Positions 11,950-21,176 of a stretch of DNA of 26,722 nt are shown here, in pieces. The first letter of the stretch is position 1, and every line of letters starts with the position of its first letter. A model generated the notes under the pieces. That model had not been told where the DNA came from. It worked only from the letters and a program-made list of their open reading frames with translations, and searched no databases. This DNA comes from a virus, in the IMG/VR virus record IMGVR_UViG_3300030116_005413, positions 1-26,722 of that record, one strand, 5' to 3'. The position numbers and the translations under genes were made by a program.

Positions 11950-12150
11950 TTAATCGTCACAATTTTCGCAATGTTTCCAAGTTGGATTAAGTCCAATATA
12001 TTCTTGTTCAGTTACTTTGGTAGGATTTTCCATTGCTCTCTTAATGTCTAGTGCGACATTTTTGATAGCAGGTGGCAACTTTCTAACATAATGACTTTCA
12101 AAGATATGTTTTAGAACTTGTTTTTCCTCTGGATTTAACTTTAACATCAT
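11950..12150 (-). CDS. Small protein of unknown function, C-terminal CxxC
   Basis: The 66-residue product has a helical N-terminus (LNPEEKQVLKHIFESHYVRKLPPAIKNVALDIKRAM) and a short end with HCENCDD, a single CxxC that might bind metal when dimeric. I do not recognise a family. It starts in ATGA overlap with the metallophosphoesterase gene upstream and has GAGG before the start, so it is co-translated with it. A modest helix-turn-helix likeness in residues 5-40 is not strong enough to call. Confidence 0.6.
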   Translation of the reverse strand: MMLKLNPEEKQVLKHIFESHYVRKLPPAIKNVALDIKRAMENPTKVTEQEYIGLNPTWKHCENCDD

Positions 12151-13379
12151 ATCGTTACCTCAAATATGGTTTTCTTTGGTTTTAATTTTGTAGAAGATTT
12201 AGCATTATAGCTTTCTAATTCCTCATCAATATTATAACACTCCTCTCCTACATTTTGTAAATCTATCTTCATAGCGTCTATATTTTTATTCTCGTGGAAA
12301 ATATAAATATTCTGACTTGCTCGTCCTGATAGATTTAATCCTTTTTCGCTATATTCGTTTGCTCCAACAAGCGAACTACTTCTACTTGCAATATCTCCTA
12401 CTCTCGCAGAGTGTATGTGCCCAGATATAATATAATCTATTTGCACACCTCTACCTGAATATCTACCTTTGATTTGATTGACACTCTTTTCGTATTGCGT
12501 AGTAAAACTTCCGTTTCCGTGTAATAATAATAAGTTTTGTCCTGCAACATTGACTACTACTTCTGTAGGATCATCAACTACAAACTGCACATCAGTTGTT
12601 TTAAAGTAGTGTCTTAGTATTTCAAAGATAACAAAGTCGTAATTGTCTGATGCCATAAAATCACTCCAACCCCAGTCTTGTTTTAATCTACTCTCATTTC
12701 CAGTCACACAAGCAACTGAAACAGAATAATCTTGTCCAACATCAAATATAACTTGTTGTAATAAATCTACTGCAAGAAATACTGCTTTTGATCTATTGGT
12801 GGACATATTCAACATTTCATCTAATCGTCTGTCAGAATTTATTAAATCGCCAGTTATAGCGATTAATACATTGTCTATATCATAGACTTTAAATATTTCT
12901 TTTGCTCTGTTTACATAGTGTTTTAATCGCCTACTGGCAACTTTGAAATCATAATTGTTATGAGGTAAGGAAACAAGCTCGTTAAAATGTGTATCAGATA
13001 TTTGCAACACTCCCACACTATTACCCTGTTTGACTTTTTTAAATTTAAATTCTGAAAAATTTTTGTTTTGCAATAATGCTTGAATATCAAATAATAAATT
13101 ATGTACTGCGTTTTCATATCTTGCGTGTTCCCTAAATGCTTTTCGTTCTATTCTATTTACATCTTGTGCAGATTGTTTTTGTTTGGCAAGTTTTACATTT
13201 TCTCTAACAACCTCTAAATCGTTTTTTATTGGATATATTGTTTTAGTTCCACAACTATTACATAAATACCTTTGTCTGTAATTACCACCAGCACTTTTTT
13301 GCGTACCCTTTTTGATAAGATCCTTGCTACCACAAGTACCACAAGATAAAAAATATATTCCGTCCTCTGAAAGTTTCAT
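12147..13379 (-). CDS. Metallophosphoesterase with N-terminal zinc ribbon
   Basis: The 410-residue protein joins two parts. Residues 10-50 form a zinc ribbon, C13-GT-C16 and C40-NS-C43, with GSKDLIKKGT and YRQRYLCNSCG, close to the transposase (InsA-type) zinc ribbon. Residues ~120-345 form a calcineurin-like phosphoesterase: D129-T-H131, GD (167-168), GNE (217-219), H277-GNG and GHIH (320-323), so all metal-binding motifs are present. A DNA phosphodiesterase or nuclease is likely, comparable in fold to the nuclease part of SbcD/Mre11, but no partner ATPase is in the window. A helical linker (residues 55-110) connects the parts. It overlaps the PD-(D/E)XK gene by ATGA, linking it to DNA processing. 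Confidence 0.82.
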   Translation of the reverse strand: MKLSEDGIYFLSCGTCGSKDLIKKGTQKSAGGNYRQRYLCNSCGTKTIYPIKNDLEVVRENVKLAKQKQSAQDVNRIERKAFREHARYENAVHNLLFDIQALLQNKNFSEFKFKKVKQGNSVGVLQISDTHFNELVSLPHNNYDFKVASRRLKHYVNRAKEIFKVYDIDNVLIAITGDLINSDRRLDEMLNMSTNRSKAVFLAVDLLQQVIFDVGQDYSVSVACVTGNESRLKQDWGWSDFMASDNYDFVIFEILRHYFKTTDVQFVVDDPTEVVVNVAGQNLLLLHGNGSFTTQYEKSVNQIKGRYSGRGVQIDYIISGHIHSARVGDIASRSSSLVGANEYSEKGLNLSGRASQNIYIFHENKNIDAMKIDLQNVGEECYNIDEELESYNAKSSTKLKPKKTIFEVTI

Positions 13380-13735
13380 TTAGTCAATCTCTTAAATCCA
13401 TTGCTGTTGTTTATTAAATCTAATAAATCCTTAAATTCAAAGCAAACCATTACTTTTGAGTGGTTTTTTGAGAAAACCAATAGTGGTGTTAAGTCGTCTG
13501 AATTTTCACTTGCTTGATCAAAGCACTTCCAAATATTAATCTTTTCTACTTTTTTACACTCTACTGCATAAGGAAAAGTTTCTCTACCTGCCTTAGACAA
13601 TATAATATCCATACCACTCTCGCCCATTACTGCCGTTTTTATATCGTGTTCATTTATACCCAACTTATCCATTATCATTTCTCTAACTTTATTCTGAAAG
13701 TTTCTGCCTTTTGCTTTTGCACTACTTGGTTTCAT
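13376..13735 (-). CDS. PD-(D/E)XK nuclease, Holliday-junction-resolvase-like
   Basis: The 119-residue product starts AKAKGRNFQNKVREMI and has the nuclease core: GESGMDIILS (D43), AVECKKVEKINIWKCFDQA (E59, K61 and Q74), then PLLVFSKNHSKVMVCFEF. The order D...ExK..Q fits small phage resolvases and VRR-NUC-like proteins. It may cut branched replication intermediates before packaging. It is immediately upstream of the metallophosphoesterase (ATGA overlap), so both enzymes are made together. The start has AGAGG 5-9 bases before it. The family is clear; the exact substrate is inference. Confidence 0.78.
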   Translation of the reverse strand: MKPSSAKAKGRNFQNKVREMIMDKLGINEHDIKTAVMGESGMDIILSKAGRETFPYAVECKKVEKINIWKCFDQASENSDDLTPLLVFSKNHSKVMVCFEFKDLLDLINNSNGFKRLTK

Positions 13736-13883: not shown

Positions 13884-14137
13884 AATACTTCGCTTTCATT
13901 AGGTTTATCCCACTCTCTCATATCAGATCTATCTATCTCTTTTGCCCAACTACTTTCATCTTCTTTTTTTTCTTCGCTAATAAACTCTCCTTTGACAATG
14001 TCGTCAATTATAAATCCAATCGTCTGATTGGTTTCATATTTCTTAAAGTTTATTTGTTTTATTTTTTCTACAACTTTATTCCATTTAGTAGTATTCTCGT
14101 GCAACTCTTGTTGCGTTTTTAATAATAAATTACTCAT
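13880..14137 (-). CDS. Small acidic protein of unknown function
   Basis: The 85-residue product has a helical N-terminus (LLLKTQQELHENTTKWNKVVEKIKQINF) and an acidic second half (ISEEKKEDESSWAKEIDRSDMREWDKP). No family is recognised. It begins from the repeated ribosome-site cassette AAAGGAATACAAATGAG, shared with the next gene upstream, and overlaps both neighbours. The mixed charge and short length are typical of host-interacting early phage proteins, but this is only inference. Confidence 0.6.
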   Translation of the reverse strand: MSNLLLKTQQELHENTTKWNKVVEKIKQINFKKYETNQTIGFIIDDIVKGEFISEEKKEDESSWAKEIDRSDMREWDKPNESEVL

Positions 14138-14363
14138 TTGTATTCCTTTCTTGCTTTTTTATACTCTTTATTTCTTTCTCAAATTGCTTATCTCTCTCTT
14201 TTTCACTTTTGTACCATACGCACTCATAATTATCTTGATCATCTTGAAACTCAATTCCAAAAATATATCCTTGATTATTATGTCCATAGTATTCTCCAAT
14301 ATCTTGTTCAACCCAATGTATTTTCAATACATCTACTATTGGATAAATTAAATGCTCACTCAT
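14130..14363 (-). CDS. Small protein of unknown function
   Basis: The 77-residue product has a beta-rich first part (HLIYPIVDVLKIHWVEQDIG, then GYIFGIEFQDDQDNYECVWYKS) and a charged C-terminal helix ending KKQERNTNE. The last six residues are encoded by the ribosome-site cassette of the following gene, so the reading frame runs through that cassette. It overlaps neighbours by 8 bases on each side. No family is recognised. Confidence 0.6.
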   Translation of the reverse strand: MSEHLIYPIVDVLKIHWVEQDIGEYYGHNNQGYIFGIEFQDDQDNYECVWYKSEKERDKQFEKEIKSIKKQERNTNE

Positions 14364-14529
14364 TTGTATTCCTTTCTTGGTTGTATTTATCTCTTAAATC
14401 TTCAATTATCTTAAAAGATAAATTTAAGTGTTCATTGTCATCAGAGATTTTAAACTCGTTTTGTATCTCTTGTAGTTCACAATGAATTACATTTAATAGT
14501 TCATCTATCTTAATCATTTGTATTCCTTT
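14133..14529 (-). repeat. Translation-start cassette AAAGGAATACAAATG, three copies
   Basis: On the minus strand CAAGAAAGGAATACAAATGA occurs at 14153-14134 and 14379-14360. A third copy, AAAGGAATACAAATGA, lies at 14529-14514. Each holds the Shine-Dalgarno and start codon of one gene, and the frame of the upstream gene runs through each one. Identity of spacer bases not needed for translation indicates duplication or recombination. Confidence 0.8.
14356..14517 (-). CDS. 53-residue helical protein of unknown function
   Basis: The frame reads MIKIDELLNVIHCELQEIQN, then SDDNEHLNLSFKIIEDLRDKYN and ends QERNTNE. The start is in ATGA overlap with the replication initiator gene and has AAAGGAATACAA as ribosome site. 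The stop is 8 bases inside the next gene. Its last seven residues are identical to the end of the next gene's product because both are read through copies of the same cassette. The product is helical and acidic. No family is recognised. Confidence 0.65.
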   Translation of the reverse strand: MIKIDELLNVIHCELQEIQNEFKISDDNEHLNLSFKIIEDLRDKYNQERNTNE

Positions 14530-15254
14530 GTAGGTTGTATTTGTTCATCACAACACGAAACATATAAATCTCTATATTCCGAAGTTGTCTTTGTTTGTTT
14601 GCATTTACGACATTGGTAAATATAAATCGGCTCGTCATCTGCAACTGATAATACTACCTCATCTGTCCACCTTTCTTGATTTAGATAAGTTTCAGGATTA
14701 GGTATATATTGTTGGTTTTGCCATTGATCCGATTTCTTTTGCAATTCTAAATTCTTTAATATTAAATCAATAGGATAATCATTTGAGTTAAATTTATCCT
14801 GTACTTTCTTCTTACCAACTTTCTTTGGATAATGCTCCCAAAATAAATCAAAATCTTTATTACTTTCTTTATTCTTACTTTCTTTCTTTCTTATAATAGG
14901 GTTAAGTCTGGGTTGGCTCTGGGTTGATTTAAAAGAATTGTAGGTATAGTATTCCACGATAATAATGTGGGTTATGTCTGGGTTGGATTTTACCTCAATC
15001 ATTTTAGCTTTTGCCAATTTATTTAAAAAAGTTCTTAATTGTTGCCTTGTCATATTATTTCTTTTAGCAAAGTTTCTCTGTGAGAATACGATTTCTCCTC
15101 TGTTAATCTCTACTATTTGATTGTTGATCAACATTGATGAGGACTTAATACTTGCCCTCATCAACATATCTATCCAACATTTTAAGTAAAGTGGATTATC
15201 CCATATCCAATTATCTTGGATTTTGCGATAGAGCTTTATGAATGAATTGTTCAA
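14514..15254 (-). CDS. Replication initiator, phage replisome-organizer-like (TTG start)
   Basis: The product has 246 residues. The N-terminus (SFIKLYRKIQDNWIWDNPLY.KCWIDMLMRA..., VEINRGEIVFSQRNFAKRNNMTRQQLRTFLNKLAKAKMIEV) is the winged-helix of phage replisome organizers that bind the origin. After a variable linker follows the helical block KDFDLFWEHYPKKVGKKKVQDKF...YIPNPETYLNQERW (~131-194), as in DnaD/helicase-loader-type proteins. The tail carries a short zinc-ribbon-like segment C-RK-C ... SCC (~214-237). TAA precedes the TTG immediately in frame and no ATG occurs before residue ~30, so TTG is the start. It overlaps the stop of a 22-codon frame as TTGA, suggesting translational coupling. 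Confidence 0.75.
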   Translation of the reverse strand: MNNSFIKLYRKIQDNWIWDNPLYLKCWIDMLMRASIKSSSMLINNQIVEINRGEIVFSQRNFAKRNNMTRQQLRTFLNKLAKAKMIEVKSNPDITHIIIVEYYTYNSFKSTQSQPRLNPIIRKKESKNKESNKDFDLFWEHYPKKVGKKKVQDKFNSNDYPIDLILKNLELQKKSDQWQNQQYIPNPETYLNQERWTDEVVLSVADDEPIYIYQCRKCKQTKTTSEYRDLYVSCCDEQIQPTKEYK

Positions 15255-15319
15255 TTAAATGTCGTATATGCTATAAGTGAACATAATACAAATACAAAAA
15301 GCCAAAACATTAATTCCAT
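15251..15319 (-). CDS. 22-residue membrane micropeptide
   Basis: The frame MELMFWLFVFVLCSLIAYTT-FN is almost one transmembrane helix. Its ATG overlaps the stop of the ERF-like gene (TAATG), its TGA overlaps the start of the initiator gene (TTGA), and a GAGG lies 9-12 bases before the ATG. It exactly fills the gap between two genes. It may be a real micropeptide, a coupling leader for the TTG-started gene, or both. Length gives no statistical support by itself. Confidence 0.5.
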   Translation of the reverse strand: MELMFWLFVFVLCSLIAYTTFN

Positions 15320-15921
15320 TATTTGCCCTCACTTTCTTTTAACATACTATCTAACCTTTTTTCCATTTCAAGTAAATCAATTAAAAGCATACCCTCACTT
15401 CTTTTTTTCAGAAATTCAATATTTTGTTGCTTAGTAATTAATCCTTTTTTCAAAGCCAATTCAGCTTTTTCAACAACTCGTTTAAAGTCTGTTGGTCTTC
15501 CCATAGCTTGTTCTTGTGCTTTTGTAGCTCGTAATACTTCTGTCGCAGACGCAACTCCATTATCTAATCCAATTCCCATAATGCCCAATGCTCTACCAAT
15601 AGCAGAAGTTTCGCAGTTTTCTAATGCACTTGTTTTATTAATAAATCCTTGCGTTGAAATTTCAGACGCACTACCACTATAAAATCTACTTCTAGTGTGT
15701 TCATCTGCTTCCATATCAAAGCTATATGGATACACTCTTGCAACAACTACATATCGTTCTGATTGTTTACCACTTAACTGATCTACACAAGTATCTCTTT
15801 CTAATACTTCTGTTTCAATATGTCCATCATAGTATTTATGAAAAGCTAATAACCTCTCATCAACAGGAACATACTCTTTATCCTTAATTAGTATAGTTTT
15901 TAATGCAAAATCCGTTTTCAT
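15319..15921 (-). CDS. ERF-like single-strand annealing protein
   Basis: The 200-residue product begins YVPVDERLLAFHKYY and carries a core FSG-like strand block (RYVVVARVYP, SGSASEIST) followed by GFINKTSALENCETSAIGR-ALGIMGIGLDNGVASATEV (residues ~93-129). The T.A...A.G.ALG..GIG...D.G.ASA.EV pattern is the conserved region I associate with ERF/Rad52-type phage annealing proteins. The C-terminal third is a Lys/Glu helix. It would promote annealing of single strands during replication or end joining. The ribosome site is GAGGAG. Neighbouring replication initiator and nuclease genes support the role. The family call is moderate, since ERF proteins are diverse. Confidence 0.6.
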   Translation of the reverse strand: MKTDFALKTILIKDKEYVPVDERLLAFHKYYDGHIETEVLERDTCVDQLSGKQSERYVVVARVYPYSFDMEADEHTRSRFYSGSASEISTQGFINKTSALENCETSAIGRALGIMGIGLDNGVASATEVLRATKAQEQAMGRPTDFKRVVEKAELALKKGLITKQQNIEFLKKRSEGMLLIDLLEMEKRLDSMLKESEGK

Positions 15922-16962: not shown

Positions 16963-17206
16963 CTTCTACCTCATCAAATATATGTGTTTCTAATTGTTCT
17001 ATTTGAAACATTTCAAGAGTTTCTTGATTTTGTTCTGATATATTTCCATCTTCATCAATTACATCATCATCTCTTTGAGAATTATTTTGTTCTAACCATT
17101 TGTCTAAATTATTAGTTATAGCGACAAAATGTTTTTCTCTTTGATGTTCCCAACTTATTATATATAAGTCGTCTTTACTTTTTCTTTTATATGTTTCTTC
17201 TATCAT
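16940..17206 (-). CDS. Small acidic protein of unknown function
   Basis: The 88-residue product has a beta-rich start (IEETYKRKSKDDLYIISWEHQREKHFVAITN) and a very acidic end (NQETLEMFQIEQLETHIFDEVEDEQAKDN). The start at 17206 overlaps the upstream TAA as TAATG with GAGGG before it; an ATG 19 codons earlier would sit inside the upstream gene. The acidic tail could imitate DNA, as many anti-restriction proteins do, but this is speculation. No family is recognised. Confidence 0.55.
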   Translation of the reverse strand: MIEETYKRKSKDDLYIISWEHQREKHFVAITNNLDKWLEQNNSQRDDDVIDEDGNISEQNQETLEMFQIEQLETHIFDEVEDEQAKDN

Positions 17207-17574
17207 TATTCTATGCCCTCGTTCATTTCGTTTAGTTTGTTTGCAATAGTAAGTTTTATCCATCTTTCAAAGCCGTAAACCATACTATTAGTAGAGCCAA
17301 TATTAAACTCTACTTCCTCGTCTAACTTCCAAAAATCTACTGGTTTGATACCATCGTGATCATATAAGGTAGTATGTTTCCAATCATATAAAGTAATAGG
17401 TGTTCCAGTTCCAGTATGTTCAAAAAAATATTCTCCTGATACTTTATAACCATCAGAAACCATAGGTTTACCAAATACTAATAATAACTCTATTGGTTTT
17501 AATTTTACTTCACTAAATTTACTTGTTCCCCCAGTTTCAATATTAGGGTTTATTCTGTATTCATTTACTTTCAT
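17206..17574 (-). CDS. Conserved-looking phage protein of unknown function
   Basis: The 122-residue product contains a strand-rich core with the pattern ELLLVFGKPMVSDGYKVSGEYFF, then TPITLYDWKHTTLYD and VEFNIGSTNS...FERWIKLTI. I recognise the combination FG.P...D.YKV.GEY.F ... TLYDWK.T.LYD ... F.IG....F..W from proteins of marine phages and large viruses, where it is uncharacterised. No nuclease or DNA-binding motif is evident. It starts from the AAGGAGAACAAATGAA cassette that is also used by the gene at 18259. Confidence 0.6.
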   Translation of the reverse strand: MKVNEYRINPNIETGGTSKFSEVKLKPIELLLVFGKPMVSDGYKVSGEYFFEHTGTGTPITLYDWKHTTLYDHDGIKPVDFWKLDEEVEFNIGSTNSMVYGFERWIKLTIANKLNEMNEGIE

Positions 17575-17597
17575 TTGTTCTCCTTGTTTGTAAAAAA

Positions 17598-17827: not shown

Positions 17828-17870
17828 TTGTTTTCCTTTCTAAATGCTGAATAATTTTTTCTTTACTCAT
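17811..17870 (-). CDS. 19-codon frame, possible leader peptide
   Basis: MSKEKIIQHLERKTSEQNI starts in ATGA overlap with the preceding gene and ends 17 bases inside the GTG-started gene. It may only keep ribosomes moving to the weak GTG start. Support is limited to the junction. Confidence 0.35.
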   Translation of the reverse strand: MSKEKIIQHLERKTSEQNI

Positions 17871-18259
17871 TTTATACCATTTTCCCTTTCATATTGTTCA
17901 ATTTCTAACATTTCCTCGTAATCTTCTTCTAGTTTTCTTCTCAACCTGTCATCACGATCCTTTTCTCCTTCTTCTATCTTTTTTCCATAATGTCCATTAC
18001 TTTCATCAAGAGTAATAATGATTTGTTCGTTATCAATCCACATTTCGTAAGAAAAAAATATTTCTTCTTTATTACCAACACAATCAACTCTTTGAAATTT
18101 TATTGGCTTATAACTATCTACAATTTCATCAGAACATTCTTTTTCAATATCTCTTAAAGTAAGATGTGCAGTTCCCCTTTCAAAATAATAATCGCCGACC
18201 TTTTTAAGTTCTTTGATTTTATTATCAATCCACTCTTTCATTTTTTTATCTTCGTTCAT
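17867..18259 (-). CDS. Acidic protein of unknown function, first long gene of left operon
   Basis: The 130-residue product has a helical start (EWIDNKIKELKKVGDYYFERG), a central strand region (VDCVGNKEEIFFSYEMWIDNEQIIITLDESNG) and a charged C-terminal helix (DRDDRLRRKLEEDYEEMLEIEQYE). It follows the AAGGAGAACAAATGAA cassette, and its start overlaps the stop of a 49-codon frame (ATGA). It lies next to the operon promoter, so it should be an early product. No family is recognised. Confidence 0.6.
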   Translation of the reverse strand: MNEDKKMKEWIDNKIKELKKVGDYYFERGTAHLTLRDIEKECSDEIVDSYKPIKFQRVDCVGNKEEIFFSYEMWIDNEQIIITLDESNGHYGKKIEEGEKDRDDRLRRKLEEDYEEMLEIEQYERENGIK

Positions 18260-18405
18260 TTGTTCTCCTTGTTTGTTATTCTAATATAATTATGGACATA
18301 GCTATAATGTGATTTAACTGATAGGGTATATATTAATGAGATATATGAAGATATAGCTATGCCCAATATAATATAATTCTTGATCCTGTTTGTTTTAATA
18401 TTCAT
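18256..18405 (-). CDS. 49-residue single-pass membrane protein
   Basis: The frame MNIKTNRIKNYIILGIAISS then YISLIYTLSVKSHYSYVHNYI has one clear transmembrane helix (~11-30) with positive residues before it. It starts 16 bases after the -10 box of the promoter at 18421-18448 and ends in ATGA overlap with the next gene. Its ribosome site is weak (ACAAG). A long inverted repeat lies inside it. It is the first gene of the left minus-strand operon, so it is expected to be among the earliest expressed. No family is recognised. Confidence 0.55.
   Translation of the reverse strand: MNIKTNRIKNYIILGIAISSYISLIYTLSVKSHYSYVHNYIRITNKENK
18293..18365. repeat. 14-bp inverted repeat within first gene of left operon
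   Basis: TGGACATAGCTATA (18293-18306) and TATAGCTATGCCCA (18352-18365) are inverted copies with one mismatch, which becomes a G-U pair in the minus-strand transcript. The loop is 45 bases. It begins about 50 bases after the expected transcription start. Confidence 0.65.
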
Positions 18406-18558
18406 CTTGTTTGTATAGACATTATAAGCATAATATTTGAAATATCAAAATATTAAATTTACCCTGTGAGATATAATATAAAACCCTTTGTATAATAATA
18501 TAAATATAAGTAATTTTAATTCCTTTCTATGTTCATTATAGAAACCTTGTTTGTTATG
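18406..18558. other. Inter-operon gap
   Basis: Apart from the promoter, this AT-rich stretch holds no gene. On the minus strand around 18550-18536 it contains AAGGTTTCTATAATG, a degenerate look-alike of the AAGGAAACTATAAAATG start cassette, followed by only six codons and a stop. It may be the remnant of a lost small gene. Confidence 0.4.
18421..18448 (-). promoter_or_regulatory. Sigma70-type promoter for left minus-strand operon
   Basis: On the minus strand TTGATA (18448-18443) is followed after 16 bases by TATAAT (18426-18421), a full -10 consensus and 5/6 -35. It lies in the gap between the terminator of the right operon and the first gene of the left operon, with transcription leftward. 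Confidence 0.65.
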
Positions 18559-18587
18559 AAAAAGGGATCTTAATTGATCCCTTTTTT
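18559..18587. terminator. Strong intrinsic terminator, bidirectional
   Basis: AAAAAGGGATC-TTAATT-GATCCCTTTTT forms an 11-bp perfect stem with a 6-base loop and T runs on both strands. On the minus strand it directly follows the stop at 18592 and should end the right-hand operon of tiny genes. Confidence 0.9.
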
Positions 18588-18591
18588 GTTT

Positions 18592-18794: not shown

Positions 18795-18998
18795 CTATAT
18801 GCACTCTATATCTTCTTGTTCCTTAAATTCTCTTATGCACATTTTAGCAATTTCATAAGATCCATTTGCAAATTTATCATTATAAGTTTTTACAAATTTA
18901 TCCCATTGTTTGTTAGTTAGTTCTTCGCCTATTTGTTCTTTACCAAAAAATTCAAATATAACATTTTCTTTTTTTAGCAATTTTATTATTTCGTTCAT
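18795..18998 (-). CDS. Small protein of unknown function with start cassette
   Basis: The 67-residue product reads NEIIKLLKKENVIFEFFGKE, LTNKQWDKFVKTYNDKFANG and IAKMCIREFKEQEDIECI, an alpha-beta mix. It starts from the perfect AAGGAAACTATAAAATG cassette (copy 1) and overlaps the upstream gene by ATGA. No family is recognised. Confidence 0.6.
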   Translation of the reverse strand: MNEIIKLLKKENVIFEFFGKEQIGEELTNKQWDKFVKTYNDKFANGSYEIAKMCIREFKEQEDIECI

Positions 18999-19168
18999 TT
19001 TATAGTTTCCTTATGTTGTTTTAATAATGACTTCCATATATAGTTTACCTTTGCTCTATCTTTTTTATTAGTATAAAAATTAAAAAAAGCAACGTGAAAT
19101 AAATCTTCTTGACAAATATAATACTCATAATCACTATCAATATTATCTGATCTTTTTTTATATTTCAT
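18995..19168 (-). CDS. 57-residue protein ending in the start cassette
   Basis: The frame MKYKKRSDNIDSDYEYYICQ, then EDLFHVAFFNFYTNKKDRAK and VNYIWKSLLKQHKETIK starts from cassette copy 2. It ends in ATGA overlap, its last residues KETIK being encoded by cassette copy 1. The aromatic-rich core (YEYYICQEDLFHVAFFNFY) suggests a compact fold. No family is recognised. Confidence 0.65.
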   Translation of the reverse strand: MKYKKRSDNIDSDYEYYICQEDLFHVAFFNFYTNKKDRAKVNYIWKSLLKQHKETIK

Positions 19169-19188
19169 TTTATAGTTTCCTTATGTCG

Positions 19189-19452
19189 TTAATCATCTAA
19201 TCTTATTAATGTATTTTCATTAATATCTTTAAAAGGTTTCCAAATATTATTTGTTTTCCTTAGTATTAAATTAAACTCTACATCACCAAATATAACAAAA
19301 GCAACATCACCAACCCAACTTGGACAATCAGAAATATAATTTCTTATTATTGCTATACGATCTGTGTCAATATATATATCATCTTTATTAAGATTATAAT
19401 GTTTATATATTGCTTTTGATATAGATGAAATTTCATCTTTTTTAGGTTTCAT
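19189..19452 (-). CDS. Small protein of unknown function
   Basis: The 87-residue product has a helix (EISSISKAIYKHYNL) followed by strands (DDIYIDTDRIAIIRNYI, WVGDVAFVIFGDVEFNLILRK). It resembles a small alpha/beta domain. It starts from cassette copy 3 and is followed by a 20-base gap. No family is recognised. Confidence 0.6.
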   Translation of the reverse strand: MKPKKDEISSISKAIYKHYNLNKDDIYIDTDRIAIIRNYISDCPSWVGDVAFVIFGDVEFNLILRKTNNIWKPFKDINENTLIRLDD

Positions 19453-19469
19453 TTTATAGTTTCCTTGTG

Positions 19470-19661
19470 TTAATTGTTATTTATAATTGGTTTTTTATTA
19501 TTGGTAAATATAGAATTTAATAAGATAGTTCTATCTTGTTTGTTTTTAAACTCTAATTTTATATAATATTGATTTGAATTATACCTGTCAAATTCTCGTG
19601 TTGAATAATCTACATTATAATTATCATCAAAATATATATATTCTGTTATTTTGTTTTCCAT
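19470..19661 (-). CDS. Small Asn/Tyr-rich protein
   Basis: The 63-residue product reads ENKITEYIYFDDNYNVDYST, REFDRYNSNQYYIKLEFKNK, RTILLNSIFTNNKKP. It is probably a short beta domain. It starts from cassette copy 4. No family is recognised; the AT-rich codons inflate Asn, Ile, Tyr and Lys. Confidence 0.55.
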   Translation of the reverse strand: MENKITEYIYFDDNYNVDYSTREFDRYNSNQYYIKLEFKNKQDRTILLNSIFTNNKKPIINNN

Positions 19662-19662
19662 T

Positions 19663-19815
19663 TTATAGTTTCCTTTGCTTGTTTTTAAATATTGTTTTTA
19701 TTTCTTGTTCTTGATCTTTGCTTGTTATTTTCTCAATATTATATATTGTTTCATTGTTATATGTTCCAATAGGTACATTAATATAATATGATGAGAACTT
19801 ATTATCTTTTTTCAT
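19663..19815 (-). CDS. 50-residue protein of unknown function
   Basis: The frame MKKDNKFSSYYINVPIGTYN, then ETIYNIEKITSKDQEQEIKTIFKNKQRKL starts from cassette copy 5. The frame is open back to 19869, but the upstream part overlaps a convincing 30-codon gene in another frame and lacks a ribosome site, so the shorter form is preferred. No family is recognised. Confidence 0.6.
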   Translation of the reverse strand: MKKDNKFSSYYINVPIGTYNNETIYNIEKITSKDQEQEIKTIFKNKQRKL

Positions 19816-19835
19816 TTTATAGTTTCCTTGTATTG

Positions 19836-20091: not shown

Positions 20092-20125
20092 AAAAAAAGG
20101 CATATATATTTAAATATATGCCTTT
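20092..20125 (-). terminator. Intrinsic terminator within right minus-strand operon
   Basis: AAAGGCATATA (20096-20106) pairs with TATATGCCTTT (20115-20125), loop 8 bases. On the minus strand the hairpin is followed by seven T. It lies just after the stop at 20132 and before the SEC-C gene start at 20076, so it may attenuate transcription into the cassette-bearing genes. Confidence 0.8.
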
Positions 20126-20285: not shown

Positions 20286-20672
20286 TTAAATGTCTAAGAT
20301 ATTAGTTTTATCTTGTTTTATTTTCATATTTAAAACCATATAAGCCATAAAATTATAATAATTGCTTATAACTCTGTCGCTTTGTTGCTCTGTATGGTTT
20401 TTATGTAATGATCCCATTTTTACGGCTAATTCTATTATATCTTCATTATAAAAAGGTAGATTAATAACAGAAGGTAATCCTGACAACCAATTAGCGAAAG
20501 CCGTTTGAAAATTTTGCGTTTGATTATCATAATTACTTTCTTTTTTAAAGACATTAATTAAATAATCTAATTTCTTTTCGTCTTTAATTGGTTTGTGTTC
20601 TTCGTATGGTTGAATACTATCTAAAATGAATTTAGCATAGTTTTTTTTGTACTTTGTGTGATGTAGTTTCAT
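20286..20672 (-). CDS. Conserved-type phage protein of unknown function
   Basis: The 128-residue helical product contains the block TQNFQTAFANWLSGLPSVINLPFYNEDIIELAVKMG followed by TEQQSDRVISNYYNFMA. The pattern F..A..NWL.GLPS...PFYN.DI.ELA...G.L....TE.Q.D.....Y...MA is one I recognise from proteins of marine phages of several morphologies, always uncharacterised. The start follows AAGGGGTTTTAA, a cassette variant. It is the largest gene of this operon. Confidence 0.65.
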   Translation of the reverse strand: MKLHHTKYKKNYAKFILDSIQPYEEHKPIKDEKKLDYLINVFKKESNYDNQTQNFQTAFANWLSGLPSVINLPFYNEDIIELAVKMGSLHKNHTEQQSDRVISNYYNFMAYMVLNMKIKQDKTNILDI

Positions 20673-20706
20673 TTAAAACCCCTTGTTTATTTGTTAATAA
20701 ATCTTT

Positions 20707-20876: not shown

Positions 20877-21092
20877 TTAGTTATCTATTTCTTTTGCTTT
20901 TTGTAGTAAATCAATTAAAAAAGATTGTTCTCTTTCAATTAAAGTAATTGATTTTTGAATTAAATCTATTTCTTTTTTAGTTTTATTTTCTTTCATTAAT
21001 TGATCATTGTATTCTCTTATTAGCGATAAATTAAAATCAATTCTTTTATTTATCTCTTTACACATAAAGAATATTTTATTTTTATATTTCAT
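20877..21092 (-). CDS. Coiled-coil protein, first gene of right minus-strand operon
   Basis: The 71-residue product is nearly all helix: KNKIFFMCKEINKRIDFNLS, LIREYNDQLMKENKTKKEID, LIQKSITLIEREQSFLIDLL. A dimeric coiled coil is likely. The start follows GAAAGGGTTTTAAA, a cassette variant. Upstream lies the control region with repeated TGTTTACATAA on this strand. No family is recognised. Confidence 0.6.
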   Translation of the reverse strand: MKYKNKIFFMCKEINKRIDFNLSLIREYNDQLMKENKTKKEIDLIQKSITLIEREQSFLIDLLQKAKEIDN

Positions 21093-21113
21093 TTTAAAAC
21101 CCTTTCTTATTTG

Positions 21114-21176
21114 TTATGTAAACAAATTACAACGATTTTTTTTAATATCAAACATTTTATTTATTTTATGTAAACA
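21114..21176. repeat. Direct repeat TTATGTAAACA, two copies
   Basis: TTATGTAAACA lies at 21114-21124 and 21166-21176, 52 bases apart, just upstream of the first gene of the right minus-strand operon. On that strand each reads TGTTTACATAA, with TTTACA resembling a -35 box, though no good -10 follows. They may be operator sites. Confidence 0.55.

Follow-up and report, generated by a model that had tools for sequence, protein, structure and literature searches.

Repeated translation-start cassettes as probable joints for whole-gene exchange in the early tiny-gene array of an uncultured phage group

T4-type phages harbor promoter-early stem-loops (PeSLs), which are repeated intergenic cassettes that lie between small early genes and mediate their shuffling (Arbiol 2010, Comeau 2014; cited through PMC4503421). 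In Cluster K mycobacteriophages, many small non-structural genes that are unrelated to one another have a short conserved block, termed SAS/ESAS, at their ribosome-binding site; the SAS is a 13-bp sequence, GGGATAGGAGCCC, with at most two deviations (PMC3203893). In lambdoid phages, homologous recombination takes place at short boundary sequences that are shared at gene boundaries (cited through PMC3029335). The T4 RegA operators are A+U-rich, unstructured stretches over the AUG of many early mRNAs, and their sequences are not identical (PMC3014915).

The DNA analysed here, called the window below, comprises all 26,722 bases of an IMG/VR record from an uncultured phage. It encodes a large terminase, a portal protein, neck and tail proteins and a terminase small subunit, together with a DnaD-like loader, a RusA-like resolvase and an exonuclease. 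A DNA comparison with 50,697 isolate phages gave no match. The terminase reaches an identity of no more than about 31% with those of the best isolates, and a search of genome contigs with the terminase returned no relative. Close terminase relatives are encoded by 207 IMG/VR stretches (88–100% identity among the 80 that were kept). The tiny-gene array is found among the early genes of the minus strand, where the window is richest in A+T, and is bounded by two terminator-like hairpins, one upstream (20096–20125, minus strand) and one downstream (18556–18589, scored on the plus strand, with a symmetric stem). Arrays were gene-called in 34 contigs (the window and 33 relatives, designated by L numbers) and their proteins were grouped by blastp; the F-number family labels come from a second blastp clustering.

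The 17-base block AAGGAAACTATAAAATG is present in exactly five copies in the window, all on the minus strand (copies 1 to 5 at 18996–19012, 19166–19182, 19450–19466, 19659–19675 and 19813–19829, each an exact match), and the ATG of each copy is the start of a tiny gene. The corresponding minus-strand genes are 18795–18998 (67 aa, family F66, function unknown), 18995–19168 (57 aa, F39), 19189–19452 (87 aa, F24), 19470–19661 (63 aa) and 19663–19815 (50 aa), the last two without a relative that could be found. A sequence-only reading had correctly reported identical blocks at these five starts, and its statement that the proteins share no similarity agrees with their separation into five blastp families. 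An exact copy arose in none of 100 dinucleotide shuffles, and no further copy with up to three mismatches exists on either strand of the window. The five genes are contiguous; an equal count of identical neighbours was reached in 0.045% of gene-order shuffles of the 16-gene window array. Copy 1 doubles as the C-terminus KETIK* of the gene at 18995–19168 (AAG GAA ACT ATA AAA TGA). The cassette consists of an A-rich leader, the Shine-Dalgarno sequence AAGGA, a fixed 9-nt spacer and the ATG. In-register similarity exceeds the 17 bp and forms imperfect repeats of 33–41 nt with the consensus TAATAACAACAT-AAGGAAACTATAAA-ATG-AAAAAA, in which AACAA is well conserved and the three to four bases preceding AAGG differ among a few forms. 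The block resembles the Cluster K SAS in its ribosome-binding position before many non-structural genes, in its single orientation and in being longer than 16S rRNA pairing explains. Unlike SAS/ESAS, it has no inverted repeats and a different sequence, and the SAS GGGATAGGAGCCC itself is absent from the window when up to two mismatches are allowed.

At least 33 sites across the relatives (31 filtered sites, the window start at 19168 and one site in L141) have the exact block, and the genes behind them fall into about 22 unrelated families. The exact 17-mer is present in 55 contigs, and in many of these a single copy precedes unrelated long genes; such cases were ascribed to chance or other phages and excluded. 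Thirteen of the 14 families that have the block in one genome and are present in others use another start somewhere, which differs from the nearly family-faithful association of the ESAS. F24 carries the block in the window, L164, L165 and L166 and lacks it in L074, L076, L123 and L176. F39 starts with the block in the window, with AAAGGGTATAAA or AAAGAGGTATAAA in L184 and L120, and with GAGGTTAAACA in L076, and F40, F43, F191 and others are likewise found behind unrelated start regions. The same genes behind unrelated starts had been named by the sequence-only reading as the sign against its proposal. This finding excludes a cassette that is tied to its gene, but it is predicted by an exchange in which a gene plugs into a resident start.

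The gene behind a given joint varies as well. F24 is followed, after identical joints, by F39 in the window, F43 in L164 and F191 in L165, and F54 is followed by F682 in the window, F181 in L078 and F43 in L185. A slot with the start TTTAGATTAAGCAAACAAACAAGGAAAAAATAAA-ATG or TTTAGATTAAGCAAACAAACAA(A)GGAAAAAATAAA-ATG harbors F28, F51 or F181 depending on the genome, and the preceding gene also changes. About 30–60 nt upstream of this slot, a hairpin-like AAAAAACTAYGCTTATRAGTTTTTAT is conserved in L037, L040, L164, L166 and others, where both flanking genes vary. Neighbouring genes share an identical −14 to −1 region 21 times, compared with 6.5 expected, a count that was reached in 0 of 10,000 permutations. 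This neighbour permutation replaced an all-pairs similarity test within versus between genomes, whose outcome mostly reflected conserved genes in the flanks and the general resemblance of Shine-Dalgarno regions. The comparison of relatives thereby shows that the cassette tracks the slot and the genome neighbourhood, not the gene.

These observations bear on a shared regulation of the genes, in which the block would be a translational operator composed of Shine-Dalgarno sequence, spacer and AUG, its identity kept by an RNA-binding repressor such as T4 RegA or by a small RNA. The block is indeed A+U-rich, unstructured and centred on the AUG like the RegA operators (PMC3014915), its 9-nt spacer is more uniform than 16S rRNA pairing demands, and genome-specific cassette types could reflect co-evolving recognisers. 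Unlike the sequence-variable RegA sites, however, the cassette copies are identical, and the same families lack the block in close relatives, so that the set of genes under it differs between genomes. Orthologous slots often carry variants with one or two changes or an indel, no conserved RNA structure was found, and the record contains no complementary (antisense) copy within three mismatches. The RegA family (PF01818) was not found in 10 records, which are fragments and were searched without a positive control. The joint recognition by a repressor or small RNA that the sequence-only reading had also considered thus gains no positive support, and we regard shared regulation as an unlikely main cause of the identity. 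Exchange and regulation are not mutually exclusive, and the block may have a trans-acting reader.

The extent of similarity around the starts differs between unrelated and orthologous genes. In unrelated genes with an identical −14 to −1 region, the shared DNA is confined to about −27 to +3, and the coding similarity is gone within about 15 nt past the ATG. In moved orthologs, the coding identity is retained and is then lost stepwise from −5 to −30. Both profiles agree with a model in which the cassette is a joint. A tandem duplication followed by fast divergence, which would leave old copies of one cassette-gene unit visible only in the cassette, accounts for the cassette common to neighbours and for the many genes that start with MKKD or MKKE. 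It conflicts with the early stop of coding similarity, with families that occur singly in other genomes behind other cassettes and with protein lengths that range from 50 to 87 aa, and is very unlikely.

The cassette type depends on the lineage. Starts in L123 are AAAAAGAGGTRTAAAATG-like and those in L076 are ACGAGGTTAAACAATG, and relatives with about 97% identical terminases use other cassettes on the same genes. The good Shine-Dalgarno sequence and the unstructured A-rich leader would also be expected of a plain ribosome-binding optimum, a best start for the host that has arisen many times. The different cassettes of such close relatives argue against it, as do the different starts on other early genes of the same genome and the neighbour permutation test, which leaves this optimum the least probable explanation that we weighed.

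L081, whose terminase is 95% identical to that of the window, has seven consecutive boundaries that consist of a hairpin, then TTTTCTTTAAYAACCTAAYGGAGGA, then the ATG, and the hairpin stems change on both sides (GTCCCCCTA..TAGGGGGC, GTCCTAGCG..CGCTAGGC and others). L081 has 12 terminator-like sites where 1.5 are expected, and 23 sigma-70-like sites compared with 15.1 expected under a consensus that may not be the host's. At the boundaries of L081 (16190–18355), L198 and L196, stems can be fully different yet keep their pairing, with a constant start block behind them, and some stems, CCTAGCGTTTCACGTGGAACGCTAGG among them, are found again at different genes. These boundaries of the L081 lineage resemble PeSLs in combining a terminator hairpin with a conserved start block, and a stem-loop is present in them. 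The cassettes of the window share with PeSLs their position at gene-shuffling joints among relatives. Unlike PeSLs, they are unstructured when folded and have no hairpin common to the starts, the block is a translation start alone with the ATG included, and the phage group is unrelated. Sigma-70-like promoters in the window are at chance level, for a consensus that may not be the host's.

The sequence-only reading had proposed to compare related phages for gene gains and losses with breakpoints at the cassette. For insertions with both flanks homologous, the empty junction was compared with the two junctions, left and right, that border the insert in the occupied genome. L164 has the order F24-F43, whereas L165 has F24-[F191-F53]-F43. 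Upstream of the start, the empty L164 junction is 97% identical to the left L165 junction and 65% to the right one, and in the coding part these values are reversed (65% left, 97% right). Both L165 junctions match across about −14 to +21, and the homology switch lies inside the cassette. L198 and L081 differ by two reciprocal events, and one L198 joint is a hybrid of two L081 joints (left 97%, right coding 100%). In an automatic scoring of 13 distinct insertions, the crossover interval overlaps −20 to +13 in 10, and in the other three the switch falls farther upstream, between −23 and −41, beyond the start block and nearer the end of the preceding gene. The crossover position is weak evidence alone, because the choice of events by gene order forces the breakpoint between two genes. 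It was therefore rejected as proof, and the length of the flanking repeats was tested instead. The direct repeats that flank inserts have a mean exact run of 13.1 nt (16 events), compared with 7.4 nt for starts paired at random within the same genomes (0 of 2000). In the L081/L198 pair, which lies outside the 16, spacing differences limit the exact runs without gaps to 8 and 4 nt. The insertions F205/F592, F57/F12 and F13/F86 are flanked by repeats of only 4–6 nt, so long homology is not needed for every exchange. The argument for exchange is carried by the flanking-repeat length and the slot data.

The shortest repeats, together with the breakpoints upstream of the start block, are what illegitimate recombination followed by selection would leave behind. 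Phage mosaicism is commonly explained in this way (PMC3029335): genes enter anywhere and only junctions with a working start survive, and the block would be a by-product. Neither the direct repeats of 12–27 bp on both sides of inserts nor the runs of identical neighbouring starts are predicted by it, and we consider it improbable as the general explanation. For exchange at the cassette, the comparison of relatives shows that whole genes have been gained, lost and replaced with a homology switch in or at the cassette and with its direct repeats on both sides of inserts, as the sequence-only reading had suggested; the direction of the events (gain versus loss) is unpolarised.

The window contains further repeated starts. 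The left copy of a second cassette, AACAAACAAGGAGAACAA-ATG (18257–18277, minus strand), belongs to an occupied slot and also forms the 3′ end of a 49-aa ORF at 18256–18405; the right copy is ACAAACAAGGAGAACAA-ATG (17572–17591, minus strand). The two copies (starts 18259 and 17574) flank DNA that is absent from L037, L170, L171 and L175, which have the order F81-joint-F17 with an empty slot. The same F81/F17 slot harbors a 58-aa gene in L166 and a 130-aa gene of family F42 in the window (17867–18259, minus strand), between two joint copies, with 27 and 22 nt of direct repeat. A 122-aa gene of family F17 (17206–17574 in the window, minus strand) follows the slot in all these relatives, and hybrid junctions were found for L037 versus L166 and versus the window. 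The 49-aa F81 product is hydrophobic and occurs in several relatives, and its last codons are the second cassette (ATGA overlap). A third repeated start, AAGAAAGGAATACAAATGA, is present at 14125–14156, 14351–14382 and 14505–14536 before consecutive small genes (minus-strand starts 14137, 14363 and 14517). In two preceding genes it doubles as the coding sequence of the C-terminus ERNTNE*, and it recurs before other families in L141, L166, L167 and L175. A fourth pair of similar starts, AACAAATAA..AAGGGGTTTTAAATG, lies at 20667–20696 and 21087–21116 and belongs to the genes 20286–20672 and 20877–21092.

The exchange model is well supported by these genome comparisons, and the cassette is probably both a translation start and a joint for whole-gene exchange in the early tiny-gene array. 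The incoming gene comes to stand behind the start signal already in place, and the gene that it displaces acquires a further copy. We infer that short homology is the cause, and that the exchange proceeds mostly by short-homology recombination or single-strand annealing between non-allelic cassettes of about 12–27 bp. Repeats of this length are at the lower edge for general recombination and within reach of phage annealing proteins. The exchange is probably performed by phage functions. Candidates in the window are a RusA-like Holliday junction resolvase/PDDEXK protein (13376–13735, minus strand), next to which an exonuclease-like metallophosphoesterase is encoded (12147–13379, minus strand). 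L142 encodes a further candidate, a Sak single-strand annealing protein (PF06378, E 6.5e-41), in the position where the window has a 200-aa protein of unknown function (15319–15921, minus strand). Three protein families share this position before the DnaD-like loader, namely those of window 15319–15921, L142 9098–9676 (Sak) and L166 8075–8626. Since one of them is Sak, the other two may be unrecognised annealing proteins. Structure predictions gave a mean pLDDT of 47 for the window protein and 53 for the F18 family, which is too low for fold searches.

Repeated exchange and copying would spread one cassette type along consecutive slots, either because incoming blocks carry their own downstream cassette or because slots convert one another, and this spread would explain five unrelated neighbours with identical starts. 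Selection would need only to keep each cassette a good ribosome-binding site. The cassettes resemble the lambdoid boundary sequences in that the joints of mosaic modules share a short homologous sequence in at least two genomes. Unlike at these boundaries, a single sequence recurs here along successive joints within one genome, so that exchange can be non-allelic and single genes can be gained or lost. An exchange role is well supported for the window-type cassette and was not shown for the Cluster K SAS, and repeated start regions as exchange joints were not found in the open-licence papers searched. Exchange at short boundaries is already known; the same papers did not describe the combination of the start itself as the joint, its consecutive repeats, its lineage specificity and the occurrence of empty and occupied sites.

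A wider picture, which we hold tentatively and rate a little short of even, is that the early region is a rack of gene slots with resident start cassettes. The cassette type would be lineage-specific and spread by concerted exchange, and single tiny genes would enter and leave by non-allelic recombination. Such a rack would resemble an integron array, but in recombinase-general form and with the ribosome-binding site taking the part of the attachment site. The way in which phages acquire and arrange their many tiny, uncharacterised early genes is poorly understood, and in most mosaic junctions no sequence accounts for the joining. In this phage group the joints are visible, repeated and caught both empty and occupied. 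A joint that carries a ribosome-binding site and an ATG would allow each captured ORF to be expressed immediately, and the start cassette may serve as a simple search handle for exchangeable accessory genes, which are candidates for counter-defence and host takeover, in uncultured phages.
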